Assembly (NCBI GenBank): GCA_032358255.1
Contig: JAULBX010030375.1
Location: 118,325-182,324, forward strand
Reading direction: 5' to 3'
Source of the DNA: Heterotrichella gracilis
Taxonomy: Eukaryota; Sar; Xanthophyceae; Tribonematales; Xanthonemataceae
DNA: 64,000 nucleotides
The notes beneath the pieces are model-generated. The model was given only the letters and a program-made list of their open reading frames with translations, was not told the origin of the DNA and did no database searches. Both the position numbers and the translations under genes were made by a program. Shown one piece after another: positions 460 through 60,893 of this stretch (the first letter of the stretch is position 1; each line of letters begins with the position of its first letter).

Positions 460-2508
460 CTTTGCGCGGATGGGCGGCGCCTGTATGTGGTAGAGCGCCT
501 GCTCCGACAGGCACTGCATCATCTGGAGCACAGGGACCAGCAGGAACCAGGGCGTCTCAGCATGCTGCGGCTGCACAAACAATATCCGGAAGCCCTTGCG
601 CTGCTGGTAGGTGCATCGACCCAGGAAGGAGCACATTATTGTGAAGAAGGTGGGGATGACCTCTGTGATCATGTGGTAGTAGTTGAAGAAATGGACCTGG
701 TGGAAGAGGGCCACTTGATCGTATGACTCCACCTGCAGGAGAGGGGGACTTGCCTGTAGGAAGAAGCGCAGTGAAAAAACAAAAACGTTATGACGGTGAG
801 GATGGGCTCGGTGGTCAGGAGGAGCAGGTTATGGTTGGGAAGGTGGGTATGACCTCTGTGACCATGTGGTTGTAGTTGAAGGAGTGCACCTGGTGGAAGA
901 GGGCGACTTGATCGTATGATTCCACCTGCGGGAGGAGTGTGGGTATGTGCGTGTAGGAAGAAGCGTGTTACTGGGAAGCCTAATACTTCCCTGTCAAATT
1001 TCAAGTATATATGACACATGCCCATGCGCCATGTGCACCGTTACCAGTACCAAACTCTAAACCACATCGCCACCACCCAACATGACACATGTTTAGCAAG
1101 CACCCACCCACCCACCCACACTTCCACCCACCTCCACCTCCATCCAGTCGAACGGCAGGCCCTGTGGCCCCACCACCTTTGGCACCATCCTGTCATCCCC
1201 CTCCCTGAAGTCCTCCCAGGTGGTGAGCCAGGTGGTGCGGATGGGGGGCAGGGACACATGCGGGTCTGCAGGGTGGGGTGGGGGTGGGGGTGGATGGTGT
1301 GGGGGGGCAGGGTGGGGAGGGGCGGGGGGCAGGGGGGTGGTGTATGTGCATGTGGGCCTTTATGGTGTCCCTCATTTTGGTGCCATTGTGGCAGGGGAGA
1401 AGGGTGGATAGGGTTGGGGTTTGGGGTTTAGGGAGGGGTGCTCATTTTGGTGCCCCTGTCACAGGGCCTTTGGCGGGAGGGTTTAGGTAGGGTTTAGGGT
1501 GCATGAGCGTGCGGCATGCAACCATTGCTTCCATACATGGGCAGGGGTTGTTTAAGGTCCAGGATAGCCTTGATGGTGGGTGAGAAACCATGACCTACCC
1601 TTGCTTATTAATACAAATTCCTTTTTTAGGGTTTAGGGTCTAGGGTTTGAGGGTGTCAGCCGTGACCTACCCTTGCTTATGTAGTACAGGCTCCCCTTGT
1701 GTAGCAGCACGTTCTGGAAGCTGCACAGGCGCGTGTGCTCGCTGCCTGAGTCGTGCAGGCACTGGGCAAAGGGGATTAAGTGGGGCTGAGCGTGTGAGCG
1801 TGCAACTGGTTTTTAGGGTTTAGGGTTTGTAGGGTGCAGAGGGGGTCCGTGAAGTGCTGAGTGTGCAAGGGGTATCAAACACGTTGACTATGCAAAGGGG
1901 GTTACTGATTATGCTGAGCGGTGTGCTCCCTGCCAGCGCACTGCAGGCACTGGGCCAGGGGGTTTACGTCACTCTTGAGGGTAGGCAAGGTTGGTATGCC
2001 AGGTGCTGTATGCTGCGAGCATAAGGGTGTGTGTGACTGAGTGATGGTCCCATTAGGGTTTAAATGTGGGCCAACGCTGCCAGTGTCTTGTGCAAAAACC
2101 ACCTTTCAAACGCTGCAAGTGCATACACAGCCACTCAGGACTGCTGTGCCACCAGGTACTTGGGTGCAGGAGGTGGTTGAAGGCGGTGGGTAATTGGGAT
2201 GGTGGGTTCATGGGTGCAGTGGGTTGGTGGGTGCACTGGGTTGCCATGCAGGTGGGTGCACTAGGGTGTACCTTGTATGAGGACATGGGCAGCTGCGGTG
2301 GTGATTCATCCTGGCACTGGCTTGGCCGCCCAACCTGTGATGCAATGACGAAGGAGTGGGAAACGTGGTCTTAGAAAGTTCAGGAATGTGCAAGTTGATT
2401 TGTGCCCAACCACGGAAAAGTTCAGTGGGCAACCCCCACCCACCCACCCACCTGCGCCACCAGCATGAAGAGTGCCAGTGCGGTGAGCTGCCGGTGACCC
2501 GCCTCCAT
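460..2508 (-). CDS. GT61-like (DUF563/EOGT-type) glycosyltransferase, N-terminal part, runs off left edge
   Basis: Four exons join in frame on the minus strand: 2508-2452, 1761-1671, 1265-1138 and 732-460 (183 codons so far, no stop). Exon 1 encodes a 19-residue hydrophobic start (MEAGHRQLTALALFMLVAQ), which reads as a signal peptide or type II anchor, so the enzyme should face the ER/Golgi lumen. Exon 2 has a Cys-rich LCSFQNVLLHKGSLYYI segment that resembles the CRFRN(V/L)C..G.LYYF motif of GT61 enzymes. Exon 4 has FHQVHFFNYYHMITEVIP, resembling the GT61 HN.YHWLTE..P motif. The family call rests on these two remembered motifs and is moderate. The catalytic C-terminal part lies outside the window. 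The start is the only ATG before the hydrophobic segment, and all junctions are GT-AG with matching phases. The gene is divergent from QCR9. Confidence 0.6.
836..934 (-). repeat. Acceptor-side ghost of GT61 exon 4
   Basis: About 95 bases closely resemble the acceptor and first third of the exon at 732-460, including CAG|GTGGA(A/G)TCATACGATCAAGT. They lie upstream of it on the minus strand. The copy is not needed in the spliced frame and has no matching donor. A donor-side ghost of exon 2 (reverse complement of CCTACCCTTGCTTATTAAT) sits at about 1597-1616, and an acceptor-side ghost of exon 2 at about 1911-1962. Confidence 0.7.
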
Positions 2509-8000: not shown

Positions 8001-11000
8001 CTCACCGCACCACCATCACTTGCACTCTTCAACACGCATGGTCACTGTGTAGCTGTTTAGGGTTTAGGGTTTGTGACCCTCCTCGCACGCCTCACCCACA
8101 CCACTACCACCAGCATGTGGATCTGTCAAAAGTTAGGGTATAGGGTTTATTGAGCCGGTTAGAATCTAGGGTGCGGGGTTCACCACCATTTCTTTTGCCC
8201 CATACAGGCGCAAGGCCACAGCCGCGGCAGCAGCCGATGCGGGACATGGCTGGTGACCTGCACCAAGCCTAAACTTTAAACCCTAAACCCCACCAGCTAC
8301 CGTCCTGACCCACACCTGCATAAGACACCCCATGCCAATGCACTGCTACCGTCACCGGCCTTCCACCCATCCCCACCCACTACCCCAAACCTTAAACCCC
8401 TAACTTCTGACTCCCTTACTCCCCACAGGCGCAAGGCCACAGCTGCAGCTGCAGCCGAGATGCGTGACATGGCGGGCGACCTGCGCACCAATATTGAGGC
8501 TGGTGAGGGCGAGGAGGAGGAGGTTGGGGGTGCGCCCTTCAGGCTGCCCTCGGCACAGGCACTGGCTGGGGAGGGGGTGGACCTTGCGGGTGTGGCGCGC
8601 AGGATCAAGGAGATTGTGCAGGTGGGTGGTGTGGTGGTGGTGGCGGTGGTGAGGCTGGTAGTAGCGGTGGCGCGCATGAGTAAGGATTGGGCAGGTGGGG
8701 GGGTGGGAGGTGGTGGTGGTAGTGGAGTGTGGGGTGTTGAGAGAGGTGGTTGACCTGGCGGGGGTGGCGCGCAAAATCAAGGAGATTGTGCAGGTGGGGG
8801 GTTGAGTGGGAGGGGTGGTGGTGGTGATGGGAGGGGTGGGGGCAGGATCAAGGAGGTTGTGCAGGTGTTGTGTTGTGAGGGGAGGAAGTGGTGGTGGTGG
8901 CGGTGGTGGTGAGGCTGGTAGGAGGGGTTGCATTGGCTGCGCGCAGGATCAAGCAGATTGTCGGGATGTTGGCGGGGATGGAGGGTGAATGGCATTTGAA
9001 GGGTAGTGATGGAAGGTTCCTGCAATTGCATTGTCAGCGCCTCCTGATTGCAGAATCACAAACCTAAAGCAGGGGTGCCCTGGGCAGGTGGACATTATTG
9101 CACGCTCCACACACTACCAGATTGGGGACTGAACTACCAGATTGGCAACAACCTGATTGGCTTTCCCCTTCCCCAGGTGCTTGACAACTTTGCCAAGATG
9201 CGCGACCCCCAGCGGTCAAGGTCAGACTACATTGATCAGGTGAGGGAGGAGGGAAATGGGGGAAATTATGAAGTAATGTTAATTAATATTAAATCATTGT
9301 TGAAATGTTGGTATTATGCAATATACATGGCCTTTCATTTCCAGCTCATGGTTGCCCACGCACACCGCACAATGCCACACCCTGGTGTGCCCTACCCCTT
9401 GCAAGCCTCACCACCACCCACCACCCACCCACAAGTGCTGCTACCCTTGCATCGCAGCAAACTTCCACCCCCATTTTATCCTCCCCCCCCCTCCCCACAT
9501 TACAGCTCAAGCGGGACCTGGGTACCTACTACTCCTACAACGATTTCATGCTAGACACCCTGCTGGCCCTGTTCACCCCCGCTGAGGCCATTGAATTCAT
9601 CGAGGCCTGCGAGGTGCCCCGTCCTGTTACCCTACGCACCAACACCCTAAAGACGCGCAGGAGGGAGCTGGCGGCTGCCCTGATCAACAGGGGGGTGAAT
9701 TTGGACCCCATTGGGAAATGGTCAAAGGTGAGCATTTGCTTTGGGAAAGGGCTACCAATGGTGTGGGGTGGCGGGCCTAGGGATAGATGCCTCTCTTTGG
9801 GAAGTGGTCGAAGGTGAGGGGGAGTAAAGGGGCCTGGTGTGAGGGTTTGGACCCTATTTGGCCAATAACATAAGAATAGGGCCTGTTATCATCTTATAAA
9901 CGACCCCAATGTGCGATTGCCTTGCCCACACCCGGGGCCCCTTGCAATTTTTGTTAGATTACCGTATTTCATCCATGCCTGCACAAAACAATAATTGAAG
10001 ACCCTACCTCTCGCAGGTTGGGCTTGTGGTTTAAGAGAGCCAGGTGCCCATTGGCGCAACACCTAGTACATGGCTGGCCATTACATGGTGCAGGGCGCAT
10101 CAACACCCTAGCCCAAAACCCTAGCCCGACGTCTCCCTCTCCTGGCTATGTGCGTGGCATCCCATGGCAGCCCAAAATCTGACATGTACCATACCACTGC
10201 AGGTTGGGCTTGTGGTTTACGAGAGCCAGGTGCCCATTGGCGCAACCCCAGAGTACATGGCTGGCCACTACATGCTGCAGGGCGCATCATCGCTGCTTCC
10301 AGTCATGGCGCTGGCACCACATGAGGGCGAGCGAGTGGCGGACATGGCGGCGGCGCCAGGTGCGGGGAGTAACCCTATCAGAAACCCTATTCTTTGCTGT
10401 CCTTGCTGGAGAGGTTGTAAGAAACCCTGAATGGAAAACCCCGATGGGAATCCGGATGGAGACCCTAGGTTGTGGTGCCAGACATGGGGCTTGAACCACA
10501 TAAGGGGGAGCGAGTGTCGGACATGGCCGCGGCGCCAGGTGCGGGGAAACCCTGATGCCCACCCTGAACAGCAGTCCGTGATTAGCAATATCTGAAGGAG
10601 AACCACACGGGAACGTGCACGGGAAGCATTTGACAGAAACCCCTACCCAGGGTTGTGGGCAACATGGAGCAAGAAGGCCCCCCCGCCACTCCCCATTCAG
10701 CACCATGCGCAAAACGGCCACCACCACCCCACCACCAACAACAACACACCACACCCCAATCCCCACCCGCAGGCGGCAAGACCACCCACATCGCCAGCAT
10801 CATGCGCAACACCGGCACCATCATCGCGAACGAGGTGAACCCTAAGAGGGTAAAGGCGCTCAGCGCCAACCTGCAGCGCCAGGGAGTGACTAACACGATA
10901 CTGTGCGCGTATGACGGGAGGGAGCTGCCCAAGGTGCTTGGGCCGAATACCCTGGATAGGGTTTTGCTGGACGCGCCCTGCTCGGGGACTGGGGTCATCT

Positions 11001-13326
11001 CCAAGGACCCCTCGGTCAAGGTGCGTGGCTTAGGGTTCTGGTCTAGGGTTTGGGCCCTGGTTTTCGGTGGCAGAGGTGCTGGGGCCTAATACTCTGGTAG
11101 CTGGCAGCCATTAAGAAACCCTATCCCAATGCCTAACAGATGAACACAAACGGGCAAGGCGTTACTGGGATCTGGTACCGCCTTCTCCTCCCAAGGTCCA
11201 TTACATCCTACCCATGGCCTCAAAAACCCTGCCAGAAACCCTGCCTGAACCCTCGCACATGAGTATGAACATGCAGGTGGTCTGGAAGCGCACGTTCCTA
11301 TCCAAAACCCTGCTCAAAACCCTGTGGTATATAAAACCTCCCCAATCTCCCTCCTGCAGATGTACAAGAACATGCAGGAGATCTGGAAGTGCATGTCCCT
11401 ATCCAAAACCCTATTTGAATCCTACCAAACCCCTTCCTGCAGATGAACAAGAACATGCAGGAGATCTGGAAGTGTGCGTCCCTGTCAAAATCCAACCCAA
11501 TTGCCCACCCACACCCTACTCAAACCCTGCTTGAAACCCCACCAAACCCTCTTCTTGCAGATGAACAAGAACATGCAGGAGATATGGAAGTGCGCCTTCT
11601 TGCAAAAGCAGCTGCTGCTAGCTGCCATCGACCTTGTGGATGCCAACAGCAAGACCGGGGGATACGTGGTCTACTCAACGTGCTCAATCACGGTGCGCAG
11701 AGAAACCCTAAAGAGGAAACCCTACAGTGGAAATGCTAAACCTTGTGTTCGGGGGATATGGTGTCTGCTCAACGTGCTCCATCACTGTGCATGGCAAAAG
11801 CCCTGAATAGTAAACCCTAACCCTGTGGGGCTATCTGTAGATTGCATACCTGGTGGTGCGCCTTCCTCCAAAACCCTAATCTAAAACCCTAACCATGTCT
11901 AAACACCCTTTTACAGGTTGAGGAGAACGAGGCTGTGGTGAACTACGTGCTGCGCAAGCGCAACAGGAAGATCGTCTTCTACCCACGACTTCAACCCAAA
12001 GCCCTAACCCAAAACCCTAAACCCCTTCCACAGGTTGAGGAGAACGAGGCTGTGGTGAACTACGTGCTGCGCAAGCGCAACGTCAAGATCGTACCCACCG
12101 GCCTGGAGTTTGGCAAGGCAGGGTTTGTGCGATACAGGGAGAGCAGGTTCCACCCTGACACGAAGGACTGCAGGCGGTTCTACCCACACGCGCACAATCT
12201 CGATGGTGGGTGGGTGGGGCGGGTGGGGGGCGGGGTTGTAGGGGTAGGTGGGGTGATGTACTGGGTTGGTGGATGGGTGGCGTGTGAGGTGGGGATTTGT
12301 GCACAACAGTAAATGGTGCTTGGTTCCATCCCAGCACGCAGAACTGTAGGCGCTTCTACCGACATGCGCGCAACCTGGGTGGGTTGTGCGGTGGGAGCCG
12401 GGGGTCTAGGGTTGACCAATGGTGTGTGGAGAGGGTGGAGTGCATGTGTGGGACCACGGTCCACCCTGCAATGCAGCACCGCAAAGCCCTGTAGGGTTTT
12501 TCATGTGCAGGCTCAATGTACTAGTCTAGGGTTTGCCATTCCTGCCTGAAGGGTTTTTCATGTGCAAGCTCAAGAAGCTGCCAACAAGCAGCTTTGGGTT
12601 TGCCATTGTTTCATGTAGGTTTGCTCTAATTAGGGTTTTCCGTTCCTGCCTGTAGGGTTTTTCGTGTGCAAGCTCAAGAAGCTGTCCAACAAGCTCAAGG
12701 TTGCCAAGGGGGGTGGTGGCGATGGTGATGACGAGGATGAAGAGGAGGTGGAGGAAGAGGAGCTGCGGGTAGAGGGGGAAAGCAGCGAGGAGGAAGGGGA
12801 GGGAGCAGAGGAGAAGCCCCAGGGGAAGAAGGTCGTAAAGGCTAACGGTAGGTGGAAAGGAGGTTTATACATACTGGTTTATTTTAGGGTTTAGGGTTTG
12901 GGTTGAGGTGTGGCCATTTAGCTGCCTGTGGAGAGCGTTGTGGTGGAATTACACTCTGGCAATCTGTGGAGGTGCTTGAGCAAGATCTAATGTGCAGGGT
13001 GGATACCCCTTTCATGTGGCGGTATGCGGAGGGGTTTCTGTGGAGCAGCTGCCACCTGGTACCCCACAAAAACCCTGTCATGGTTTCCCCCAACGAATGC
13101 TGGGTGGTTATTTACTGAATTCCATGCCTTTCCCACAGGGGTGGCGGCAGCGCAAGGGGGCAAGGGGGGCAAGGGAAAGCAGCACGGCGGGCGGGGAAAC
13201 AAGGGGGGGAAAGGGAAGGGGCTCCAGGGGGATGGCCAGAAGCCAAAGGGAAAGCAGCAGAAGTGGAAGGGCGCGGGGAAGAGACAGGCTGGGGCAAAGC
13301 ACAAGGGGAAGCCGGCGGCCTCCTAG
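5066..13326 (+). CDS. NOP2: NOP2/NOL1-type 25S rRNA (cytosine-C5)-methyltransferase
   Basis: Fourteen exons join without a phase error: 5066-5161, 5610-5663, 5857-6175, 6890-7131, 7433-7719, 8429-8621, 9177-9239, 9506-9727, 10203-10359, 10773-11020, 11561-11692, 12034-12205, 12656-12847 and 13139-13326, giving 854 residues. The start is a basic Lys-rich stretch, followed by Ala/Pro/Lys-rich and long Glu/Asp-Ser nucleolar tracts (about residues 140-330). The Rossmann methyltransferase core follows. It has the SAM-binding AAPGGKTTH (about 543), motif [11 protein letters not shown] (about 611, Cys) and motif VI YSTCS (about 666, catalytic Cys). The Nop2 hallmark [20 protein letters not shown] comes next, then a Lys/Gly-rich tail. 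Nop2 makes m5C in large-subunit rRNA and is needed for 60S assembly in the nucleolus. Exon edges are echoed as ghost copies in most of the longer introns. Confidence 0.93.
8208..8260 (+). repeat. Acceptor-side ghost of NOP2 exon 6
   Basis: CAG|GCGCAAGGCCACAGC and the following 35 bases repeat the first quarter of the exon at 8429-8621 with a few changes. The copy ends abruptly without a donor. Its position upstream fits the acceptor-side rule. Confidence 0.75.
8752..8962 (+). repeat. Donor-side ghosts of NOP2 exon 6
   Basis: Bases 8752-8793 copy the last ~42 bases of exon 6 plus its GTGGG donor. Shorter copies of the final AGGATCAAG(G/C)AG(A/G)TTGT follow at about 8847-8868 and 8941-8962, separated by G-rich GTGGTGGTGG filler. 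All are downstream of the real exon. Confidence 0.7.
10017..10102 (+). repeat. Acceptor-side ghost of NOP2 exon 9
   Basis: The real exon starts at 10203 with GTTGGGCTTGTGGTTTACGA. The ghost repeats it for about 85 bases from its own TCGCAG acceptor. It carries TTTAAG for TTTACG and CACCTAG for CCCAGAG, which puts a stop in frame. Confidence 0.8.
10483..10538 (+). repeat. Donor-side ghost of NOP2 exon 9
   Basis: About 55 bases copy the end of exon 9 (ACATGGC(G/C)GCGGCGCCAG) and its GTGCGGGG donor, with point changes. The copy lies downstream of the real donor at 10360. Confidence 0.8.
11257..11482 (+). repeat. Three acceptor-side ghosts of NOP2 exon 11
   Basis: Copies at about 11257-11301, 11358-11399 and 11441-11482 repeat the exon start ATGAACAAGAACATGCAGGA and the next ~20 bases. 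Two have a CCTGCAG acceptor. CCAAAACCCT-type filler lies between them. The real exon is 11561-11692. A donor-side ghost of the exon end (TCAACGTGCTCCATCACTGT) is at about 11749-11788. Confidence 0.8.
11917..11980 (+). repeat. Acceptor-side ghost of NOP2 exon 12
   Basis: The 48 bases from GTTGAGGAGAACGAGGCTGT match the real exon start at 12034 exactly, including the preceding ACAG. They then drift into AAACCCTAAACC filler. A donor-side ghost of the exon end is at about 12322-12378 (TGTAGGCGCTTCTACCGACA). Confidence 0.8.
12494..12600 (+). repeat. Two acceptor-side ghosts of NOP2 exon 13
   Basis: GGGTTTTTCATGTGCA(A/G)GCTC occurs at about 12496 and 12550, upstream of the real GGTTTTTCGTGTGCAAGCTC at 12656. 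The second copy also carries the following AAGAAGCTG. Confidence 0.75.
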
Positions 13327-17400: not shown

Positions 17401-17455
17401 GTGTACCAGTTGCAACCGAGCCACGTGTACCAGTTGCAACCGAGCCACGTGCAAG
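17398..17455. repeat. 24-base tandem duplication at the RCC1 pseudogene breakpoint
   Basis: GTGTACCAGTTGCAACCGAG followed by CCAC occurs twice in a row exactly where homology to the intact RCC1 gene ends. A related CTCGTGTACCAG string recurs at about 18138. It may mark the duplication breakpoint. Confidence 0.6.
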
Positions 17456-32215: not shown

Positions 32216-32220
32216 GTGTC

Positions 32221-40216: not shown

Positions 40217-43200
40217 ATGGCCACTGCTGGCTTCACCGCCACCCCCTGGCCTGCCTGCCCAATCCCCACCCTCAGGGCCTACCTGCGCCAGCAAGGGGTG
40301 GATGCCAGCTGGTGTGTTGAGAAGGGGGAGCTGGTGGAGCTCTGCAGGCAGACAGAGGTGGGTGGGGTGGTGGTGGGGTGGTGATGTAGGGTTTGTGGTT
40401 AGGGTCTCTGTTTAGGATTTTGCGTGAAGAGGGTGGAGCTGGTGGAGCTTGCAGGCGGACAGAGGGGGCAATGCCTATAGCGCCTAAGGTTATAGGGCAG
40501 GCCGTAGGGAAGAAGGGGCTTCCTGAGGACGACGCGGAACCCTAACTTACCCTAGCACTGCTCGGTTGGCCACGCTTGATTAACGCAAGTCTTTGGGCAA
40601 CAGCGCCCCACGCAGGACCTAGGGAACAGGTGGTCCGTCACTGCTGCAGCTATGGTTGCCACTTGTGTTCACCCTACCTAGGGTTTAGGGATAGTGCAGG
40701 TATCACACGCCGCTGCCAGCATCGATGGGGCACACCCTACTTACGGGTTTAGCCGCAGGGCTGTGGCACCACACGTGTACACCCTACCCAAGGGTTTTGG
40801 GGCAGAACACTGCCACCTGGTGCTTACATTTGTCACTGCTGCAGGTGGCAAGCGGCGTAGGGGTGAATGTTGAGGGGTACGAAACCTTCCCGCTCCCCCC
40901 ATCCCCTCCAGATGAACAGGCGAGGCTGCGGAAGGCAGGGGGGCTTGCGCCAGGTGGCAAGTGGACGCTGGCCACCCTGGAGCAGGCAATCAAGGCAAGC
41001 ACCAGGGTGCAGGTGCGTGTGTGGAAAACCCTACTGGCAAACCCTGTCGAAACCCTATTCAAAACCCTGCTTATATGGCCACACTGGAGCAGGCACTGGA
41101 GGCAAGCAGCAAGGGAACGGCGCGTGTTGGAAAACCCTACTGGGATACCCTACTAAAGAAAACCCTAACGCAAACCCTGTCCAAGCGCCTTGGGCAGCAG
41201 CTGCGGTTGCAGACCTCGCTGGTGTTCTGGATTGAGTCCCATTTAAAACCCTACACCAAATCCCTACACAACAAAACCCTAAACCCTCTTTGCAGGGCAA
41301 GCAGCAGCTGCTGCTGCGGACCTCGCTGGTGTTCTGGATCGAATCCCTGGCGGAGCGCGGGGATTCCGTTTTGTTGTACATGGTGGCTGCCAATCCCCAG
41401 GTGGTGAGATTCGTGCTTGAGGATTTGGATACGGATCCGTTGAAATCCCCACAGGTATGGGCTGGGATCCCCACATCAGCATCATTACCTCTACAGGCAG
41501 ATGGTCACCCCCACATGCATATCATTATCCTAGCCATACCCCTAGACCTCCAGACACACATGGCAACCCTCATCTTGGTTGCAATCACCCAGCTAACCCA
41601 AACCAACCCCAGCCCTACCCATCCTACTAACCCTACCCTACCTGCATCACCTGGGCATGTACTACAAATAAGTGCGCTGGTGGCTAACCCTGCTGACCCT
41701 CAACAAAACGCCTAGTAAACCCTACAAACCCTACTGAACCCTACAAACGCCTGCAGCACCTGGGCATGTACTACAACCGAGTGCAGCTGATCGCCAAGCT
41801 CACCAAGGGAGGGCAGGCCCCACGCGAGCCCTACAACCCAGCAGTGCCGCACATCGCAAGGTTCTATGTGGAGGGTGCGTAGGAACCCTAAACCCTAAAC
41901 CCCAAACCCTGTAAGTTTGTGTGTGAATGGGTATGCCCAATCCTCGACCCCCGAACCCTACACCCCAAACCCTAAAGCGCACACCCTGCTTTGAAATACT
42001 GCTTGCCACAACGCAACCTTCCTGCCACAAGAACCCTAAACCCTAAACCCCATTCACCCCGATCCCGCAGCCCCCACCTACCAACCAATGGTGACCGACA
42101 CCAGCGGGCCTGGCTAGCCGCTGGGCATGCGCCAGGCACTGTACAAACCCTAAACCCTAAACCCCATACCCTTCTCCTGCTGGCTCGAAAGACTGCTTGC
42201 CACAAAACCCTAAACCCTAAAATTGCCACACCTTGCCCCCGCAGCCCCCGCCTACCAATCAATGGTGACCGACACCAGTGGGACGGGTTGGCTGCTGGGC
42301 ATGCGCCAGGATGCGCTGAACGCCCTGGTCCACCTCATGCTCACCGATGAAATCCGGGAGGTTGCAATCGACGTGCTGGGCTTTGTCAGGGAGGTGCGTG
42401 CGGCTGGGTGTGGTGTCTAGGGTTGTAGGGTTTCATGCAGGGTCTAGGGGTTTAGGGTTTTGTGTGGCGGCAGTAAACAGGGCTGTCGCGGAGGGTGTTT
42501 GGAATTTAGGGTTTGCCTGCCGCGGCTCTGGATGCGCTGGTTAATGGCATAGTCATCGATGAGGTACACCTGCGTTTTTTGGGTGGGGACACCACTGATG
42601 GCTTAAACCCTACACCCTATTTTCATCCTAAACCCTACCCCCCCCTCTTTGCAGCTGCAGCGGCAGTACCTGCGCCTGCGTGTGGACACCCACTCAAGGC
42701 CTGACCCCTCCACATTAGACCCTACAAGCCTCTAAACCCTCGTCCCCTTACGGCGAGAGCACCTGCGCCTGCATATCCACACCACTGACGGGCCTCACCC
42801 TACACCATTCATCTTTGTCCCTGAACTTTGCTTCCCAGCTGCGGCGAGAGTACCTGCGCCTTGTTCGTAAACCCCGACCTCCCCTTCCCACCTGTGGCGA
42901 GAGTACCTGCGCCTGCGTGTGGACACCACCGATGGGCCTAAAACCCTAAACCCCATTACCCTTGATTCTAGACCCCAACTAGGGTTGATAAGCTCCCCCT
43001 GTGCAGCTGCGGCGGGAGTACCTGCGCCTGCGTGTGGACATCAGCGACCATGTGTTCCACGTCAGCCTCGTGGCGCTGGCGCTGTGCTGCTACCACCCAA
43101 GATATGGACCACAGGTAAACCCTACACCCTACACCCTACACCCTAAACTGACCATTTCCATGTCAGCCTCGTGGCGCTGGCGCTGTGCTGCCACCACCCA

Positions 43201-46200
43201 AGATATGGACCACAGGTAAACCCTGAACCCTAGACCCTAAACTGACCATATCCATGTCAGCCTCGTGGCGCTGGCGCTGTGCTGCTACCACCCAAGATAC
43301 GGACCACAGGTGAGGTGCAGTTGTGAATGTGAGTGTGGTTGTGCGTGTGATTGGTGGCGCTGGCGCTGTGCCATCGCCACCCACAGCATTGAAGCTGAGG
43401 GCTAGCCCACAAAGCCTTGGGTTCAAACCCTAAACTCCCTAAAGCCATAAGCCTAAAGCCCTGTGCTCTGACCCCCAAACCTCCCGTCCATGCGTGCAGC
43501 TATCTGCTTTCATCATCAATGACGTCATCACACTGCCGTAGGGCTTAGGGTTTGCAGACAATACCCTGAACCCTAACGCCCGTGTGCATGCAGCTGTCCT
43601 CGCTTATCATCGATGACATCATCACCCTGCTGTAGGGTTTAGGGTTTGCTGACAACTTCCTTAACCCACCTTCCTCCCCTGCAGCTGTCGTCCCTCATCA
43701 TCGATGATGTCATCGCGCTGCTGTCATGCGCACCGGATGCCCCCGGCTGCCAGTCGTGTGGCGCTGCCCAGCGGTGTGGGACCGGTCTCAAGGCAGCGCA
43801 TGACCTGCTGATGTCAGAACATTCTGGGGAGGCGCGCAGGAAGCTGATGAAGCCAGGTGCGGCAATGGGGTGAATGTGTAGTGTAGTGGGTCTCATAACT
43901 GCATGATGTGCTTGAATTTCGTAGTGTAACGGGTCGTGAAAACTTTCAATGATGTGGCCACGGGCTGAAGGTAGCGCATGAGCTGCGGATGTCCAAGCAT
44001 CCTGGGGGGCGCGCAGGAGGGTGATGGAGCCAGGTGCGGCGATGGGATGTCATGTGTACTGTTGTGCGGTAGTGGGTCAGAAATGTAAGAACTCAAAATA
44101 AAATGTAGCTGAAATGGTAGTGTAATGGGGCTTGGATTTTGTATATGATGCGGCCATGGTCTGAAGGCCCCGCATAAGCTGCTGATGTCCAAGCATCCTG
44201 GGGGGGCGCGCAAGAGGGTGGTGGAGGCAGGTGCGGCAATGGGATTCTATGTGTAGTGTAATGGGTAGTGGGTTGTAGAAATGCAAAAAGATATAGAAGA
44301 ATATGCATTGTAATGGGTCTTGCATTAAAATGATTATAAAGGCTGTGCACGACCTGCGGATCTCGTCGCCCGATTGGAGGAGCTGACGCAGTGGGGGGTC
44401 CAGAAAATGCGTGGAATTCCACCCCGTTTCGTCCACCCCAATTTGCAGATGTCGTCGCCCGGGATCTAGAAATTTGCAACATTTCACCCCTACGTCTCCA
44501 CCCTCATTTGCAGATGTCGTCGCCCGACTACAGGAGCTGTGCGAGGTTCCAAAGATTGCTGACACAGCTTGCAAGGTGCTAGGGGTGATCTCGCTCCTGA
44601 GGGAGGGGGTTGACCTGCGCGCGGTGCAAGGGGAGCGGCCTAGCGGGCGGGTTGGCAGGGGTGGCGAAGCAAGTGGGACAGGTGGGGGTGGAAATCGTAG
44701 CATTCCAACAGTACAGCAAGATCAGCAGAGGGGGTGCACAGAGAAGGGGGCTTGTAAATTTCTTAATTTTGTGGATCAGTGAGTGAGTGATCAAATCATG
44801 CAATCGCGGAAATGGTGTGGAGCCGTTTGAATTGATTACATTGTATATAGTTGGAACTTGTATCGGACATTGTCTTCCAGTACCATGGGTTTTCTGTAGT
44901 TACACTGTCAGGCTGAACAGGTGTGGGGCGCTGCTGCGCCTGGTGGATTTAATTGGCCGTGGGTGCTGGATGTTCCAGACACAGACCCCCCCGTCTAAGC
45001 AGCGTAGTCCCGGCGTGGGAAGCACAAAAAAAAAAGCGCCGAAAAAAGGCACAGAAAGCAAGGGCCAAAAGTTTGGCCAATCAGGCACTCAGCAACGTAA
45101 TTGGAATGAACACAGAATAACTACCAAGCACAACCGCAACTTCATATATCCACAGCGCCAGCCAGCGTGTCCAGAAAACCCGAGTTCTCCAAGGGGGGAA
45201 AACTCAACAGTCATGTGCCGTTGGCACTGTGAATTCAAAGTTTGAATTCAAACTTTAATTGGCCGCCACGCACGCGCACAGGCCCCCCTTCCCAAGCACA
45301 AGGTTTCACCTTAGGCCCTTTCCCATGCACAAGGATTGACCTCATCCCCCCTCCCCGTGCACAAGGTTTCACCTCATCCCCCCTCCCTATGCAGGGACCT
45401 CTGTGCAGGCCGCTGTTGCCCAGCAGATTGCGGCATTGGACACTTCAAGGGAGGAGTTTCACCCCAAGGGGACTGTAAACGCCATGTTTGCTTTGGAGGA
45501 CATGGCAGCCAGTGGGCCCCATTTGACTGGTGAGTCTGCAGCAAGGGTAATGAGATAATCATAGGACTATTATCCTATTATTATCTTACAACCCTTGGTC
45601 CTATCATTGTATTTTGCGTGCATGGCTGGGGGGAGCATGGCGCAAAAGCTTTGGAAGTTCCCACAGAAATCCCACAGAAATGTGATTATCAGTACGAGGG
45701 GTGCCAACCTGAATGGATGGCACTGTGTTTGTATTCAACAGTCACAAAGAATCGATACATAACGCATCCATGCTAACCATCCTACGTATTGATGTATGCA
45801 CCCTCGTATTCAAATCGCCATTTCTGTCCCCCGCAGCCCTGCTTGCCTGTGGCGCCATGCCAGCGGCCCTGCGTGCAGTAGACCAGGGTACCAACTAGTA
45901 CCAAAAAAATGCGTTTCTCATGCCCGACTCCTCACCACTGCCAGACAAATGAAATACAATCAAAACATCCTATCTGTTGATGCATGAACCCTCGTATTCA
46001 AAACGCCATTTTCTGTGCCCCGCAGCCCTGCTTGCCTGTGGCGCCATGCCAGCGGCCCTGCGCGCAGTGGATCGGGTTGGAGAGAAGTTCCAATCGGACC
46101 AGTTTGTGCACGATTACCCAGCCTCGGTGCCGGTGATGCTCCTGGGGCTCATTAACACTGTGGTGGGCTGTATTGAGGGCCAGGAGTGGGGCGCAGCGCA

Positions 46201-53243: not shown

Positions 53244-56200
53244 ATGGGCAAGGCACGCACGCCCTTCGAGGACAAGCGCAAGGGGAAGAACTCAGATGAC
53301 CCCGCCCGTGCCGCCAAGGGAAAGAAAGGACAACGAGATGCCTCCACGGTAAGACTAATGTCAGACCGGGATAGAACCCACGCCCTCCCGCCCCACCTGC
53401 CTCGACGGAACCCACAATGCATGCATATGCCGCCGGCGCACTGGCCGCCAATAAATGCTGCGACGCCGGCGGCTCCCCTCGCGATGGGCGCACAGTCTAG
53501 CTCCTTGTTGACGATGCGTAAGGTGTTTCTATGTGGTGTGTGTTCTCGCTAATGAGTTGCTCACTGACACTGACTTCTGGTGGTTCGTGGCTGTAGGTAC
53601 GGCGGCTCCAGATGTACAAGACCCGGGCCGTGCGCGACAAGAAGGGGAAGATCATCCACGAGGTAGGGTTTAGGGTTTGGGGCACGCTGTGGAAAGGGGG
53701 CTGTGCAGCTGTGTGTTTGGAGGGCGCCCTTGTGGTAGGCATGTAGGGTTTTCAGTGGGACCACACCACCACCATGTCACCCTTGTGTGATATGCAGCAA
53801 GGGCTGCCAGCGCTTGTTGCAAGTCTATCTCCACAGTTTCGTCGGACCCCTTGCATGCGCTGCACCCTGCCACTGTCTGCTGGTCGAGCAGACCAAGAAA
53901 TCTGCCTTTTGCCAGCCCTGGGCACGCCCCTTGAACCCTAATAAAACCCTAGCCAAACGCTGTACGGTAGTTGTATCTCGTCCCCCACCAGTGGGCGTCC
54001 ATCCCTCTGCAACTCACTGCTCCAGAATGCCGTCACCTCAAACCCCTCGTTACCGCAGCAACACCCTACCCAACCCTCCATCAACACCTCTGTGTACCCT
54101 AGGCAAAATTCAAGGCAAAACCCTGACCAAACTCCCACCACGCAGGCCTTCCAAGGCAAAGAGCTTCCCAACACGCGCATCCAACCCGACAGGCGCTGGT
54201 TTGGCAACACGCGCGTGATTGGCCAGCAGCAGCTGCAGAAGTTCAGGGAGGAGATGAGCACCAAGGTGAGCGGGGAAGGGACTAGGGTTTTGGAGAGGGT
54301 TTAGGTTAGGGTTTGGGGTGGCCAGCGGCAGCTTCAGAAGTTCAGGGAGGAGATGAGCACCAAGGTGAGCGGGGAGGTGTGTAGGGTTTTAGAAAGGGTT
54401 TTAGGTTAGGGTTTATGGGTGGCCAGCAGCAGCTGGTGAAGTTCAGGGAGGAGATGAGTACCAAGGTGAGCGGGGAGGTGTGTAGGGTTTTGGAGAGGGT
54501 TTCAGGCTAGGGTTTAAAGGTGGCCAGCAGCAGCTTCAGATGTTCAGGGAGGAGATGAGCATCAAGGTGAGCGGGGAGGGGTGTAGGGTTTTGAGAGGGT
54601 TGAAATCAAGGGTTCTCGGGTAATTGACCCGCAGCAGCGTCAGAAGTTATGAGGTCTAAGGTAGGGTTAGGGATTTGGTGAGGGGCGTATCGGGGGCTAG
54701 GTTTAGACCCCTTGGGTTGCCCCACAACATCGGTATACACACCTAGGCACCGCTCAGGTCGGGACTCGAAGGTGGAAGCTCTGTGCGTGTGTGTGTGGCT
54801 GCTGGGGGTGATGATCCAACACAAACTAATTCACCATCTTTCACCTGATACCCCGTGATTACAAGTTTGATGCTGACCCAACCAGCCACACACACACACA
54901 CAAGAACAATACACAGCTGCCTTTGGGCGAGTAGGGATGGGGTCGAGGGTTTCCCCTCTCAGTTGTTAGTGTTTGTCCCATCTAGAGGTAGGGTAAGGCA
55001 TGGGCGGTGCACAAAATTGACAACCGTGCTTTGCACTCTCCTTGCCACCCCACAACCCCGCCCCTGTCCTGACAACGCCCTGATAGCGGTCCCCCTCGCC
55101 CCCCCCTGCCCCTGCCCCCCACCACTCACAACCCCCTGTGCACCCCACTCCAGGTGAACGACGCCTACACAGTGCTCCTGCGCGAGAAGAAGCTGCCCCT
55201 CTCCCTCCTAGAGGACCCCGAGCAGAAGCAAGGGGGGAAAGAGAAGCGTGTCAACCTGCTTGCCACACAGCCCTTCCAGGACACCTTTGGGTCCAAGGGG
55301 CAGCGCAAGCGGCCAAAGCTGGCGGCGGAGTCGTACGGGGAGCTGCTGAGGGGGGCGGAGGAGGTGGAGGAGAGGTGAGGCATGAGCCTAGTGTTTAAGG
55401 GGGTTAGAAAAGTGTAGCTGTGATGGTTGCGGGAAGCGGAGAGGAGGCGGGGATTGAGCTTTGGTGAAGGCGGTGGTGTTTGGCGCCAAGGGGCAGCGCA
55501 TGCGGCCAAAGCCGGTGGCGGAGAAGTTTGGGAGGGGCCAGGTTCACAGGGAGAGTGCATCAGGGAACCCTGTGCTCGCGGTGGCATGCCACAAGTTTGC
55601 ACCCCTGCAGGCCATATGTGCTCTGCCATTGAAACACACAACGCAGCACACACTCACCCTGCGCACCGCACGGTGCCATTACCACACGCATAGCCCACCA
55701 CTGACAGTGCGCCAAAACCCTTGCCTAGGTTCATCGAGAAGGGCGGCAACAACGTGGCCGAGGACGACGGCGTGCGGCCCGCGCAGCGCGACACGCTGTT
55801 TGACAAGGGCCAGTCGAAGCGCATTTGGGGGGAGCTGTACAAGGTGGTGGACTCGTCGGACGTGGTGGTGCAGGTGAGCATACAAAACGCTTGGACAGGT
55901 TGCTCATACGTTAAAGTCAACTCAATAGCGGGAAACAGCACATAAAAGATTTGAATGCAACTGTTATCATCAGCTTTTGTGGCTTTGTATTATGCTGTGT
56001 ACCTGCCATGTTACATATTATTTACCGTACTAGGGCTGAATGCCATATCTCCTTCCCACCCGCCACACACACACACCACTCCCCAAGGGTCGTACGCTGG
56101 TGATACCCCAGCCGCCAACCATCCCACCCCTTCCCCCCAGGTTCTGGATGCGCGCGACCCCAACGGCACGCGGTGTCGCCATCTGGAGCAGCACCTGAGG

Positions 56201-59200
56201 AAAAACGCACGGCACAAGCACATGCTGCTGCTCATCAACAAGTGCGACCTGGTGCGTACGAGAAAACCCTGAACAAAACCCTGAAGTAAACCCTACACTA
56301 GGGTAATGGTGGCTCATGTGGCACAAGCACATGCTGCTGCTCATCAACAAGTGCGACCTGGTGCGTACGAGCAAAACCCTGAACAAAATCCTGAACGAAA
56401 GCAAACCCTGTAGGATAAAGGTGCTAAGCACGACACAAGCACATGCTGCTGCTCATCGACAAGTGCAACCTGACGCATGGGGGGATGTCACCCTAGAAAA
56501 CCTTGAAGTAAAACCCTACAAGGTAATGCTGCTCAACAAACAGTGCAAATTTGGCTTAAGCTGGGTTGCTGTGGTGGGTGGGCTGATGATGACATCAATT
56601 GTCCGTACCATCCGATCCGCATGACGATCAAACACAATCCAGAGGCCCACGCACAACTCCCCGCACCCCGCCGCTCCAAAACCCTGCCCCGCCCTAAACA
56701 AAACCCTACAAACCTGCCTGTGCCCTGTGGAGCAGGGCCTCGGCTCAGCTTAGGGCTTAGGGTTTAGGATCAGGGCAGCAGGTTCCTGGACATTTGGACA
56801 CGTGCGGCTCAAAGTAATTCACATACTTTTCAAGGGTTTTTTGGAAGGGTTCATTTCTAGAAACCCTAGCCCTATATAAACCCTAACCAGACCCTCCCCC
56901 CACCCCCAGGTGCCCGCCTGGGTGACCAAGCGCTGGCTGCACACCCTGTCCCTTGGAGTACCCCAGACCCTACTCAAAACCCTAACCAGACCCTATCCCC
57001 ACCCCCAGGTACCAGCCTGGGTGACCAAGCGCTGGCTGCACACCCTGTCCCGCGAGTACCCCACCCTGGCCTTCCACGCCAGCATCACCAACCCCTTTGG
57101 CAAGGGGTCCCTGCTGTCGCTGCTGCGCCAGCTGGCGCGCCTGCGCTCCGACAAGAAGTACATCTCGGTGGGCTTTGTGGGCTACCCTAATGTGGGCAAG
57201 TCGTCGGTCATCAACACGCTGCGAACAAAGAAGGTGCGCTTGGTTGCGGGAATGCCTGTTTCACGGGCTTTTAGTGGGTTTTATGGTTATCTTCTTGTTT
57301 GTAGAATAGAAATGTTTGCTGGTGGTATGGGTGTTGATATGGTAAGGTTTCTTGGGTTTAACTCCACATCAGCTCGTATAGCAGCGTACATCCTTCGCCA
57401 GTGAAGAGTTTGTGACGATACACTTGCGAGCGCAATTGTGGGGTGGCCCACAGAGCCCTCCCACCCTCCACTCCAGTAATGGTTGCAGGGTGGCTTCTAC
57501 TGCCCATTCAGTGTTTTAAGGAATCTTGGGTCACTCGTACTGACCTTTGCTCCCCTCTTTCAGGTGTGCAAGACCGCCCCAGTCCCTGGCGAGACCAAGG
57601 TGTGGCAGTACATCACGCTCATGAAGCGCATCTTCCTGATCGACTGCCCAGGGGTGGTGTACAACAAGAACTCAGACTCGGAGACAGACATCGTGCTCAA
57701 GGGGGTGGTCAGGGTGGAGTGCCTGGTGCGTGAGGGTTGAGGGGTTTAATAAAAGGAAACCGATTAGGGTTTCCCTTGAGAACAAAGACATGCCTCTCTA
57801 ACGACAACCACCTCCTGGTGGTTTTTTAAGTGCTTACACAAACCTAAACTCTTATGTTCGAAGCCCTTCAACTCTAAAAAGCACGCGTGGGATACTTTTG
57901 CAGGGTTTTGTGGGGTTTAGGCAGTTGGTTACCCTAGCTAGGGTTTGTTAATGGCTGGCGCGTGGCAGGGGTGATGACAAACTGTACCGCCCCAGGCTGA
58001 CCCACATAGTGATGAGACCAAAGAATTCCACCTGAATTGATAATGCTGACCTGCCACCGCCAGCCAATATGAGTAGGATTCCCCCATTGTGAACCCATGC
58101 CTAACTGGGTGCTAGTGTTTAGTTTTACGCCAAGGCCACAATAGAGTTTCAGGTGCATGTTATGCATAAGGGCCAGCACAGATAACCCTAACCGTGCCAA
58201 ATGCCGGTCTAGGGCGCTAGGGCCTGCAGCCTACATCCTAAACCCTACGCATTGTTGCTGGCTTTGGGGTGATGACAGGACGAGTACCTCAGACCTACAC
58301 ACCGTGGTGCTTTACTCCAATTGTCCAATTGCTGTCTGACCAGCCCCACCCCACCCATGTGCCATGCTTCCCACATTCCTGCCATGCATGATTTGGGGCA
58401 AAAGCAACCCCCCTGTGTTTGCGCCCCTTCTCCCATCGCACATAACCCCAGGCGGTCACAAAACCTGCATATGCAAACCTCATGAGGGGATCCCACCCAA
58501 ACTCTAGACCACCCCTCAACCATAGCCTGGCTTGAACCTCATTTCTCCTACCACCTGCCAATTACCCCTTCCCCACCACTCATCACAACCCGCTGACAAC
58601 CCCTCGCAGGAGGACGCCACCGAGCACATCCAGGCCGTCCTCGACCGGGTCAAGCCCGCCTACCAAAAACCCTAAAACCCTTACAAAACCCCTTAAAAAT
58701 TCCGCAGGAGGACGCCACCGAGCACATCCAGGCGGTCCTTGACCGCGTCAAGCCCGCCTACCTCAAGCGCGCATACAAGATCAAGGAGTGGACCGACTCG
58801 GAGGACTTCCTGACCCAGCTGGCCAAATCCAGCGGCAAGCTGACACGTGGCGGCGAGCCGGATCTGAACACCGCTGCCAAGATGGTGCTGTATGACTGGC
58901 AGCGGGGCAAGATCCCCTTCTTCTGCATGCCGCCGGACTATGTGGAGGCGCTGGGGGCGCCGGTGGTGGTGCCGGAGGAGGCAGTCACGGTGCGTAGTGA
59001 ACTTTAAGCGTTCAAATCCCTCAGAAAAACCCTAGGGTAGGGGTGTGGGACCCTGTTTTCGTGTGGCAGTGGGGCAAGATCCCCTTCGCCTGCATGCCCC
59101 CCGACTAGGTATGTGGAGGCGGTGGTGGGCAGCAGTGGTTCCAGTTGAAGCAGTCATAGTACGTGCAAATGCTGAGGTAAGTCTTGGCTCCCTTGTGAGG

Positions 59201-60893
59201 GATTACGATTCACGCTGGGACAGAAATAACTCTCGGAATTGTTGTGGCGCCCTTTTTTTGTGTCTGTGTGTGTCACGGTGAAGGATTGGGGAGGTTGCAT
59301 ATAGGGTGTAGGTCTTGGTGTAGGGTAATGGCTGGCGCGTGGCAGGGGTGATGACAAACTGTACCGCCCCAGGCTGACCCACATAGTGATGAGATCAAAG
59401 AATTCCACCTGAATTGATAATGCTGACCTGCCACCGCCAAAGCCACCTAAGCCTAGAAGTTCTGTCAAATTAGCCAGCTCTCCAGTGCATTCAGCTTGTT
59501 ATGCGATTAATATGTTACAGGCTTTGAGTGACGTGCACTTTTGCATGCGTGGCCCATTATGCGCCCCTGTGTAGGGTGTAGGGTGTAGGGTTGCAACGCT
59601 CCCCCTCTCTCCTCCCTTCCAGGTGGAAGACGTGCAGACCGAGGCGGATGTACAACCCAGGGTCTAGGGTTTGAGACCTATGTTTTTACCCTCTTTATCC
59701 TCCATCCCCAGGTGGAAGATGCACAGACTGAGGCGGGGATCAACAGTGAGGTGGCTGCAGCATCCGCCACCGCCGCCGCTGAAACCCTAAGGGCTGCCCT
59801 GCAGCAGCAGGTCTCGCGCGCCATCCCTGTGCAGGAGGACAGGTTCCTACCAGGTACGACTTGCGTTAGGGATTGAGTAGGGTTTCAGTGCTTGTTGCAA
59901 GGGCGGTTATTACAGGAAAGTTATTATTTGCATAGTGGTTGGGTTGGCAAGTTGGTTAAGGCATGCACATGTAGAGCTTGGTTGCATCGAGCTGCTGCTA
60001 TAATTGTGCTTGTCCCAGGTGTGGTTTGCTTCAGGATTTTAGGCTGTAGGGTTCCTGTATGATCTGTCGTCTGGACCCGGCACTGCCGTTCGCCCAACCC
60101 CACCCCTCACACACACCTCTGCCTCGTCTTGCTGATCATCAACGCAACGCAATGCACCTGGTGTAAGCATCCCTCGGCAGCTGTTTATGTCAATCCGGCA
60201 TGTCCCTGGGAATGGTCCTCCGCCCTTGTTCAAGATAACGCTGAAAACCCTCGAGCATGAACCCTAAACCCTGAACCATGGCCCTGATCGTTAACTTCCC
60301 CCCCCACTTGTCCAGATGACGCTCGGAATGCGGAGGACGGGGAGGAAATACCCTCCCCTGGGGTTTCCGGCAGCGAGGCCAGCGACCTTGTGAGCGATGG
60401 GGAGGAGGAGGTTGAGAGTGGGAGCGATGGGCAAGGGGGGGAGGGAAGCGGCGGCGAGGTGGGGAGTGAAGGGGAGGAGAGCGAGGAAGGAGAAGGGGAG
60501 GAAGGGGGAGGGGGGGAAAGCGGGGATGACAGCGATGGCTATGGTGAGGCGGGGCTGTCGTGGGAAGCCATCATGCAGAGCCTGCAGGGGGAGGAGGATA
60601 GCGACGAGGAGGGGGAGGAAGCAGGGGAGGAGGAGGGGCCTGGACCGGTGATTGTGCCCAAGGCCGCGCAGGGCAGGCGGAAACAGGTCGCAGTGGGGAT
60701 CCCTACCAAGGGTGGTAAGGGTAATCGCAAGGAGCAGAGCCGCTTCCCCCACAAGTCCAAAGCGCTCAAGGCGCAGGGCAGGGGGGGCGCCAGCCCGGGG
60801 GTGGGCAAGGGGGGCGTTGGGCGCGGGGAGAGGCGGGGGGGCAAGGCTGGCGGCAAGCGTACCAGCAGGCCTGGGGAGAAGCGCAAGCGATAG
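53244..60893 (+). CDS. NOG2: Nucleolar GTP-binding protein 2 (NOG2/NUG2), 60S biogenesis GTPase
   Basis: Eleven exons join in frame: 53244-53348, 53597-53662, 54146-54265, 55154-55374, 55729-55873, 56141-56251, 57009-57233, 57564-57725, 58708-58989, 59712-59853 and 60316-60893 (718 residues). The N-terminus is the NGP1NT domain ([20 protein letters not shown], then [17 protein letters not shown]). A circularly permuted GTPase domain follows with motifs in the order G4 NKCD (about 252), G5 HASIT (279), G1 GYPNVGKSS (314) and G3 DCPG (358). Then comes [20 protein letters not shown] and the Nog2 tail, ending in an acidic Glu/Asp-Ser block and a Lys/Gly/Arg-rich nucleolar C-terminus. Nog2 binds pre-60S particles around the future peptidyl-transferase centre and its release licenses export. 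Ghost exons are frequent, and two introns contain snoRNA genes. Confidence 0.93.
54315..54665 (+). repeat. Four donor-side ghosts of NOG2 exon 3
   Basis: The last ~45 bases of exon 3 (TTCAGGGAGGAGATGAGCAC) with the GTGAGCGGGGA donor recur at about 54320-54365, 54420-54466 and 54520-54568. A poorer copy is at about 54630-54662. Each is followed by GTGTAGGGTTTT.GAGAGGGTTT and a TAGGGTTTA motif, so exon end plus filler amplified as a ~100-base unit. Confidence 0.9.
56314..56550 (+). repeat. Donor-side ghosts of NOG2 exon 6 (three)
   Basis: Copies of CACAAGCACATGCTGCTGCT...AAGTGCGACCTG and the GTGCGTACGAG donor follow the real exon at about 56321-56374 and 56434-56475. A small piece is at about 56524-56545. 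They copy the segment that encodes the GTPase G4 motif NKCDL. Confidence 0.85.
56900..56965 (+). repeat. Acceptor-side ghost of NOG2 exon 7
   Basis: CCCCCAGGT(G/A)CC(C/A)GCCTGGGTGACC through CACACCCTGTCCC precedes the real exon at 57009, about 98 bases upstream, followed by AAAACCCTAACCAGACCCT. Confidence 0.85.
57962..58057 (+). ncRNA. Intronic box C/D snoRNA, copy 1, predicted large-subunit rRNA P-loop guide
   Basis: All four boxes are present: C GTGATGA (57971-57977), D' CTGA (57997-58000), C' GTGATGA (58009-58015) and D CTGA (58046-58049). A perfect 8-base terminal stem, GTGGCAGG with CCTGCCAC, brackets them. The 13 bases before D' (57983-57995, TGTACCGCCCCAG) are complementary to CUGGGGCGGUACA, the conserved P-loop segment of large-subunit rRNA as I recall it. 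By the D+5 rule the 2'-O-methyl target is the second G of GGGG, equivalent to E. coli Gm2251 and, from memory, yeast Gm2619. The gene lies in the intron between NOG2 exons 8 and 9 and would be released from the host intron. Confidence 0.75.
58257..58347 (+). ncRNA. Possible second box C/D snoRNA in the same intron
   Basis: C box GTGATGA (58269-58275) and D box CTGA (58336-58339) are flanked by a bulged stem: GGCT plus GG pairs with CC plus AGCC. No clear C'/D' pair is present. The D guide (upstream of 58336, ending AATTGCTGT) has no target I can name. It lies about 200 bases downstream of the first snoRNA, which is good context for an intronic cluster. Confidence 0.35.
58609..58663 (+). repeat. 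Acceptor-side ghost of NOG2 exon 9
   Basis: CGCAG|GAGGACGCCACCGAGCACAT runs for about 55 bases, nearly identical to the real exon start at 58708, then breaks into AAAAACCCTAAAACCCTTAC. A donor-side ghost of the same exon with an in-frame TAG (CCCGACTAGG) is at about 59068-59165. Confidence 0.9.
59339..59434 (+). ncRNA. Intronic box C/D snoRNA, copy 2
   Basis: This is an almost exact duplicate of the snoRNA at 57962-58057, shifted by 1377 bases into the next NOG2 intron. The shared block is about 114 bases with one C/T difference, and it sits outside the boxes and the P-loop guide. C 59348-59354, D' 59374-59377, C' 59386-59392, D 59423-59426 and the 8-base stem are all intact, so both copies should be functional. 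The flanking intron sequences are unrelated, so the unit moved as a discrete block. Confidence 0.72.
59621..59665 (+). repeat. Acceptor-side ghost of NOG2 exon 10
   Basis: CAG|GTGGAAGACGTGCAGACCGA matches the real exon start at 59712 (GTGGAAGATGCACAGACTGA), then ends in CCCAGGGTCTAGGGTTTGAG filler. Confidence 0.85.

Follow-up and report, generated by a model that had tools for sequence, protein, structure and literature searches.

Decayed copies of exon edges, often with telomere-like tracts between the copies, in the introns of the alga Heterotrichella gracilis

Long introns are mostly explained by transposons. The 64,000-nucleotide stretch of Heterotrichella gracilis DNA analysed here (the window, part of contig C783) raises the question of whether introns may also lengthen out of the edges of their own exons, as the initial annotation had reported decayed exon-edge copies in the introns of several of its genes. 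Such a copy is called a ghost below, and the stretch between a ghost and the real edge is called a spacer. The eukaryotic assembly comprises 68.5 Mb in 903 contigs (GC ~54%) and encodes light-harvesting genes, among them a CP26-type protein whose nearest entries, over the part examined, are CP26 from the PDB, presumably those of green algae; a search of the assembly gave no match to PsaA or PsaB. Within the window, the identity of the GT92 (Glyco_transf_92) gene is confirmed by its open frame, and its neighbourhood was read by eye.

The exon edges were tested in 16 genes with homology-based exon maps, namely NOP2 and NOG2 of the window, with exons placed via matches to solved homologues, and CCT/Cpn60 and HSP70 genes on other contigs. 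The eleven CCT/Cpn60 loci (11 of the 14 contigs with PF00118 matches) and four HSP70 loci (four of the nine contigs with at least two HSP70 matches) were selected by family only, and tRNA-synthetase regions were left out. Edges were fixed from the reading frame, profile continuity and GT-AG, giving 68 introns with a total length of 22.5 kb and a median of 300 bp; this set omits L021 intron 4, whose edge is doubtful, and an L036 intron that lacks a GT donor, and L028 yielded no resolved intron. Comparisons of edges with introns were accepted at a score of 36, the null maximum being 31 among 1700 mispaired scores. L006 and L007 (36% GC) were excluded from the tract and edge analyses. A GC content of 36% characterizes the C1 and C100 stretches to which these two loci correspond, and long uninterrupted tRNA-synthetase frames on C68 and C111 are bacteria-like; the assembly may contain associated bacteria.

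Of 68 exon ends tested, 11 have a copy in the downstream intron; of 68 exon starts, 8 have one in the upstream intron. Ghosts on the expected side thus amount to 19 of 136 edge tests, while the reverse comparisons gave nothing above the threshold (exon start against downstream intron, 0/49; exon end against upstream intron, 0/49; together 0/98). A BLAST version at 13 gene loci returned 13 donor-edge matches, all downstream, and 10 acceptor-edge matches, all upstream, with none reversed and no whole-exon copy; four further matches at exons with an unresolved edge and three inside an exon also lie downstream. The ghosts, their strict and hence non-random placement relative to the matching exon, and the lack of whole-exon copies, all claimed from the window, are therefore borne out in the genes modelled, and exon-edge ghosts are confirmed as genuine and, across the sampled parts of this genome, of general occurrence. 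The phrase 'introns built from ghosts' is supported for about a quarter of the introns, 16 of 68 having a detectable ghost. A laxer repeat search at the 19 ghost-bearing edges raised the number of ghosts to 30. The features of the window are listed in Table 1.

Table 1. Exon-edge ghosts, spacers and associated exons in the window
Feature	Position	Strand	Support or remark
NOP2 exon, real copy with ghosts on both sides	10203..10359	+	homology to solved NOP2 proteins
Acceptor and exon-start ghost upstream of NOP2 exon 10203-10359	10001..10102	+	91% over 103 bp
Spacer from ghost to NOP2 exon 10203, CCCTA-type telomere-like tract	10103..10187	+	
Exon-end and donor ghost downstream of NOP2 exon 10203-10359	10478..10546	+	88%
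NOP2 exon with three ghosts upstream and one downstream	11561..11692	+	
Three acceptor-side ghosts of NOP2 exon 11561	11267..11490 (~11267-11304, 11352-11392, 11433-11490)	+	AAACCCT-type sequence between
Donor-side ghost of NOP2 exon 11561-11692, behind AAACCCT-type spacer	11750..11790	+	
NOP2 exon, end approximate	12034..12222	+	homology
Acceptor-side ghost of NOP2 exon 12034	11913..11975	+	95%
Telomere-like spacer CCCTAACCCAAAACCCTAAACCCC, ending beside the acceptor now used (NOP2 exon 12034)	11976..12029	+	
Decayed donor-side ghost of NOP2 exon 12034-12222 (exon end approximate)	12322..12403	+	73%
NOG2 exon whose last ~46 bp and donor begin a 101-bp array	54146..54265	+	
Four successive donor-side ghosts of NOG2 exon 54146-54265, TAGGGTTT-type tracts	54320..54648	+	scores outward 82, 80, 80, 40
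Ghost of the end region of NOG2 exon 55154-55374	55479..55523	+	89%; match ends 44 bp before exon edge
NOG2 exon with donor-side ghosts	56141..56251	+	
Two donor-side ghosts of NOG2 exon 56141	56320..56472	+	56320-56360 identical to exon, 56428-56472 93%; AAACCCT-type spacers
Acceptor-side ghost of NOG2 exon 57009-57233	56887..56965	+	91%; telomere-like tract inside duplicated unit
Acceptor-side ghost of NOG2 exon 58708-58989	58605..58664	+	95%
38-bp telomere-like spacer AAAAACCCTAAAACCC..., ghost to real acceptor of NOG2 exon 58708	58665..58702	+	
Ghost of the end region of NOG2 exon 58708-58989	59064..59139	+	82%; match ends 22 bp before edge
Acceptor-side ghost of NOG2 exon starting 59712	59601..59647	+	79%; BLAST only, absent from threshold-36 edge matches
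Three exon-end-like copies at putative edges, the first two followed by GTAAACCCT donor-telomere tract	43056..43311	+	
Repeated exon-start-like copies at putative edges, upstream of segment at 43004	42752..43047	+	read by eye
GT92 (Glyco_transf_92) open frame	37976..39247	+	

The window has some other features. At the decayed donor-side ghost of NOP2 exon 12034-12222, a weak protein-level match over 12282-12386 reads through one stop. The apparent N-terminal coding frame of NOP2 holds, at 5866-6001, a 55-bp duplication (76%) that includes AAACCCT and codes for KPS repeats; it may reflect an event related to those behind the ghosts but tolerated inside an exon. Open frames with RCC1 repeats occupy parts of 15288-28441 (15288-16259 and 16965-17600 on the minus strand, 26334-26891 and 27188-28441 on the plus strand) near 15-bp tandem arrays. 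NOG2 introns contain two MITE-like 114-bp copies (57949-58062 and 59326-59439; 99% identical) with the terminal inverted repeats TGGCTGGCG...CGCCAGCCA; the genome search gave one other match, at C363:17078-17194, and with just three genomic matches this repeat was rejected as a source of ghosts.

The side rule is a matter of geometry and purifying selection, as any tandem duplication that spans a junction yields the same pattern, and no special mechanism is needed for it. It is the almost complete lack of duplications confined to introns that calls for an explanation. BLAST within the 68 introns gave 40 exon-intron rows (unresolved edges included; 16 further pairs outside resolved introns were left unclassified), five rows that join ghost to ghost and one intron-only pair (70% identity), with intron-only positions 3.4 times as numerous as junction-spanning ones. 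Uniform random tandem duplication is ruled out by this scarcity. Detection bias was likewise rejected as its source: ghosts have changed at ~6% and silent exon sites at ~3% of sites by hand arithmetic, and same-age intron-intron pairs would be just ~1.4 times as diverged. We think that the events favour exons or exon edges and that those internal to exons are lost to selection, exon-exon pairs being absent from 20.9 kb of conserved exon.

Once formed, the ghosts appear to drift roughly as neutral sequence, perhaps with weak constraint. Mismatches between exon and ghost in 17 pairs, a set that omits NOG2 exons 54146 and 56141 for their ambiguous frame, number 15, 19 and 41 at codon positions 1, 2 and 3 (~280 sites each), a distribution that departs from uniformity (p 0.0003) and makes 55% of them silent, against 25.5% expected without constraint. 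This skew, together with the GT or AG retained at 15 of 19 ghost junctions, by which ghosts could serve as alternative splice sites, might suggest that ghosts are functional, either as alternative 5' or 3' splice sites or as poison segments under selection. However, the counts are close to the 1:1:2 predicted when the ghost is neutral and only silent change accumulates in the real exon, so constraint on the ghost is not needed; moreover, 4 of the 17 pairs contain indels, and the copies are partial and never whole exons. We consider a function for the ghosts improbable, and their decay without coding constraint agrees with the proposal made for the window.

The ghosts are also associated with intron length, since introns with ghosts have a median of 455 bp versus 273 bp in those without, in line with the claim that each duplication lengthens an intron. 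Their position within longer introns, many with a splice context of their own, fits the lengthening of existing introns. Eight edges have several ghosts, which allows 11 comparisons of neighbouring ghosts: the one closer to the exon has the better score in nine, and two are ties (two-sided 0.065, ties counted against); by identity the nearer is higher in seven, tied in two and lower in two. There is hence a trend towards growth at the edge, with the stronger ghosts nearer to the exon.

The structure of the copies was studied by comparing the 19 best real/ghost junctions directly, with a recount made without telomere masking. The exon part of the copy measures 30-60 bp (60 being the recount maximum). 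Eight of the 19 pairs match for 2-17 bp beyond the exon edge, with a spacer that does not resemble the outer side; L020 exon 2 (98%) and NOG2 exon 58708 (95%) are examples. The match extends 32-76 bp into the intron in the other 11, often through telomere-like sequence, and the tract lies plainly within the repeated unit at NOG2 exons 54146, 56141 and 57009, L027 exon 3 and L036 exon 7. At NOP2 exon 12034 both sides are telomere-like and differ in detail beside 49 identical first exon bases, a pattern that could reflect separate tracts or fast tract change; decayed tracts beside identical exon copies are found at NOG2 56211-56371 as well. The original suggestion of tandem duplication thus holds in that the duplicated segment spans the junction and the inner copy is kept, but a plain tandem event fits only part of the pairs.

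The eight almost purely exonic copies might recall an RNA template, that is, a reverse-transcribed fragment of pre-mRNA over an exon edge, taken up into a break close to the splice site and joined by telomerase-type synthesis, which would also account for the missing intron-only copies. Three results make such an origin hardly likely: the 32-76 bp of intron in 11 of 19 copies; the failure of any of the 19 ghosts to run on into the neighbouring exon (top score 19, below the null maximum of 31); and the nearly always direct and local arrangement of the copies, with 98 direct and 2 inverted pairs among those less than 5 kb apart in a self-BLAST of the window. An introner-type transposable element, with splice sites carried by the insertions, is more improbable still. 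The spacer adjoining the inner copy does often supply a branch or pyrimidine context, but with the tracts masked the 19 spacers share no common filler sequence (342 comparisons, top score 22 versus a shuffled maximum of 21) and form no family of near-identical insertions such as introner elements do; copies of ~50 bp also far exceed the usual target duplications of transposons.

The telomere link and the anchoring of the duplications to junctions are the surprising parts of these results, and both were missing from the earlier duplication claim. From the contig ends, the telomere repeat of the alga is taken as TTTAGGG: a 42-bp pattern of six such units has 63 matches genome-wide (overlapping matches counted), arrays of at least 42 bp stand at the very start of six contigs (C70, C140, C526, C609, C717 and C770), and at least one further six-unit match is internal (C109). 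A telomerase RNA-binding domain is encoded on C626. Heptamers of the TTTAGGG type occupy 881 positions in the window, compared to 45 to 82 in five second-order and 429 to 481 in fourth-order Markov sequences. Among the spacers, 14 of 19 contain the heptamer, against 398 of 3659 (11%) equal-length random stretches of ghost-free introns; the five spacers that lack it comprise four on the donor and one on the acceptor side, and all seven acceptor-side spacers that have it show the CCCTAAA orientation.

We surveyed telomere-like tracts of at least 14 bp in 261 kb, composed of the window, 15 stretches outside it (five on the same contig) and the 11 chaperonin loci. Of 265 tracts found, 261 were testable, four being too close to the end of a locus. 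At 86 of the 261, the 160 bp to the left of the tract match the 160 bp to its right (score at least 40), in contrast to none of 1260 mispaired combinations; random positions, 783 in number, gave 6.8%. With the score set at 36, the proportion of tracts is 39% in the window and 30% elsewhere. These 86 have the order copy-tract-copy, with a median copy of 51 bp (IQR 42-62) and a median spacing of 107 bp, and the tract comes within 10 bp of the copy at 57% on each side and at 36% on both sides at once. Outside the window, 34 tract-flanked duplications were found in 150 kb (10 on the window's contig, some of them in one array), and if the 15 outside stretches are typical, extrapolation would put the genome-wide number in the order of ten thousand. 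A count over 25 stretches (17 other 10-kb loci and the window in eight) gave 149 direct pairs with a spacer of 0-300 bp, a number that includes minisatellites and overlapping rows, and 93 of these carry the heptamer in the spacer. At least one such heptamer-bearing pair is present in 11 of the 15 10-kb algal stretches outside the window (five on the same contig, ten on others), and the two stretches with 36% GC have direct pairs, none with a 0-300 bp spacer.

Other repeats were noted in the same material. Two palindromic octamers, TGCATGCA and GCATGCAT, rank with the most frequent, with 260 and 213 counts on both strands of the 261 kb. Minisatellites at 22185-22341, 46593-46789 and 45283-45393 have units of 39 and 32 bp, a consensus without the telomere heptamer, and are distinct from the ghost arrays.

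Telomere tracts as general signals of splice edges were considered and rejected, as 42 tracts lie within 60 bp of a junction and 57 in the interior of the 68 introns, which is no significant concentration (p 0.17), and ghost-bearing introns hold 66 of these 99 tracts. A metaplot of 43 introns has tract peaks 10-50 bp from the junction, and tract orientation differs weakly between the donor and acceptor sides (p 0.033). The duplications, on the other hand, are anchored to splice junctions. Reduced by start position, the 86 give 79, some of which still overlap or share an array, and in a position-aware motif test 55 of the 79 have a donor motif at the copy end next to the tract, versus 19 of 79 at the opposite end (Fisher 1.4e-8). 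The same bias in stretches outside the window and the chaperonin loci (26 of 34 tract-proximal, 10 of 34 opposite) indicates that junction anchoring is not special to the window; generic splice-site scoring of the copies outside the window gave a weak signal.

The account that we prefer, if tentatively and at somewhat short of even probability, is that introns lengthen at their edges through a repair process that duplicates a junction-spanning segment, often with telomere-like filler, while the inner copy is spliced. A staggered DNA break near a splice junction would be filled in on both ends, so that a segment T (~50 bp of exon plus 2 to 76 bp of intron) would be duplicated, and a short filler N, mostly decayed TTTAGGG, would commonly be left between the copies as T-N-T; the fill-in may be the work of the telomere-end machinery (telomerase and CST-Pol alpha). 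The survivors would be events that leave the mRNA intact, with T across the splice junction, the exon-facing copy spliced and the other copy becoming an intron ghost, which would be skipped in vivo and then drift. Such survival yields the side rule without further assumptions. The direct repeats would sometimes expand into ~100 bp arrays, or new events would strike the new edge, and the stronger ghosts would come to lie nearer to the exon. We count in favour of T-N-T repair that the copies are direct, local and roughly of overhang size (median 51 bp; 98 direct versus 2 inverted), and against uniform random breaks that many intron-only duplications would be expected and one was found.

A serious rival, quite possible though in our view still on the doubtful side, is plain tandem duplication, by slippage or unequal exchange, of junction-spanning segments in which intronic telomere-like tracts pre-existed and were carried along or acted as fragile spots. 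The 11 matches that run 32-76 bp into the intron are explained equally well by plain duplication of a tract-bearing unit, which weakens the reading of the filler as inserted; the five junctions with the tract visibly in the unit, the arrays of 94-109 bp units detected by TRF in the window and the heptamer-free spacers likewise favour it. Plain duplication fits less well with the eight matches that stop within 17 bp of the junction despite a long exon part, or with tracts and flanking duplications that co-occur far beyond the mispaired control, and it also leaves the missing intron-only duplications unexplained. The part assigned to telomerase in the repair account is inferred. Decayed tracts beside identical exon copies fit poorly with a fresh telomerase product, and the extension of both break ends by telomerase, for which the facing order TTTAGGG then CCCTAAA is expected, was set aside as neutral (10 versus 9 observed).

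The repair account has partial counterparts in other organisms. Tandem duplications in plants, which Schiml in 2016 and Vaughn and Bennetzen in 2014 are said to have traced to paired nicks or patch repair, are reportedly short, local and direct; we know of no confinement of these to exon edges. For interstitial telomeric sequences of primates, rodents and horse, the available passages describe telomere repeats inserted at double-strand breaks, some with a direct duplication of the target that is ascribed to staggered breaks (PMC7215372), and the tracts of the alga resemble them in being of its own telomere repeat type and between matching flanks (86/261). In the horse, according to the same passages, a simple duplication is found at 3 of 66 loci and placement appears random (PMC7215372), whereas one third of the alga's tracts have matching flanks and those are on splice junctions. 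The fill-in of 3' overhangs by CST-guided Pol alpha-primase is described as giving small tandem duplications (PMC8355091); the likeness lies in a telomere-end complex and in duplications about the size of the overhang, tens of bp, and unlike the passages of that study the alga has telomeric filler and a link to splice sites. A purely random fill-in differs from the alga's duplications, which are non-random with respect to gene structure (one intron-only pair at 3.4-fold more positions), and this lowers the case for a purely random process, not for a fill-in step.

In vertebrates, repair by capture of nearby DNA is described as producing local copies, sometimes with splice sites, but partial exon/intron donors account for just 4 of 824 cases in the passages available and pairs within 50 bp of each other were excluded there (PMC2671141). 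Intron gain by tandem genomic duplication, in which the duplicated gene segment turns into an intron (PMC3296678, as far as its passages tell), differs from the alga, where growth, often with filler, seems to affect introns already present. Among the matches listed from the open-access literature, judged by title, start of abstract and passages, we recognised no description of junction-anchored duplication with telomeric filler.

A stronger form of the repair account, which we hold to be rather unlikely as a whole, is a mutational process directed at splice junctions and coupled to the telomere-end machinery. Introns would then be extended stepwise at their edges, each event adding a telomere-like spacer and an exon-edge copy pushed inward; the spacer would often give a branch-point or pyrimidine context (CCCTAAC at acceptors) that keeps the inner copy in use, and introns throughout the genome would draw on the telomere repeat as raw material. 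At a more general level, a repair-type process in this alga seems to lengthen introns stepwise, leaving a readable record and involving the alga's own telomere repeat. This opens to testing how duplicated splice sites are tolerated, and whether ordinary breaks are processed by the telomere machinery frequently enough to affect the form of genes.
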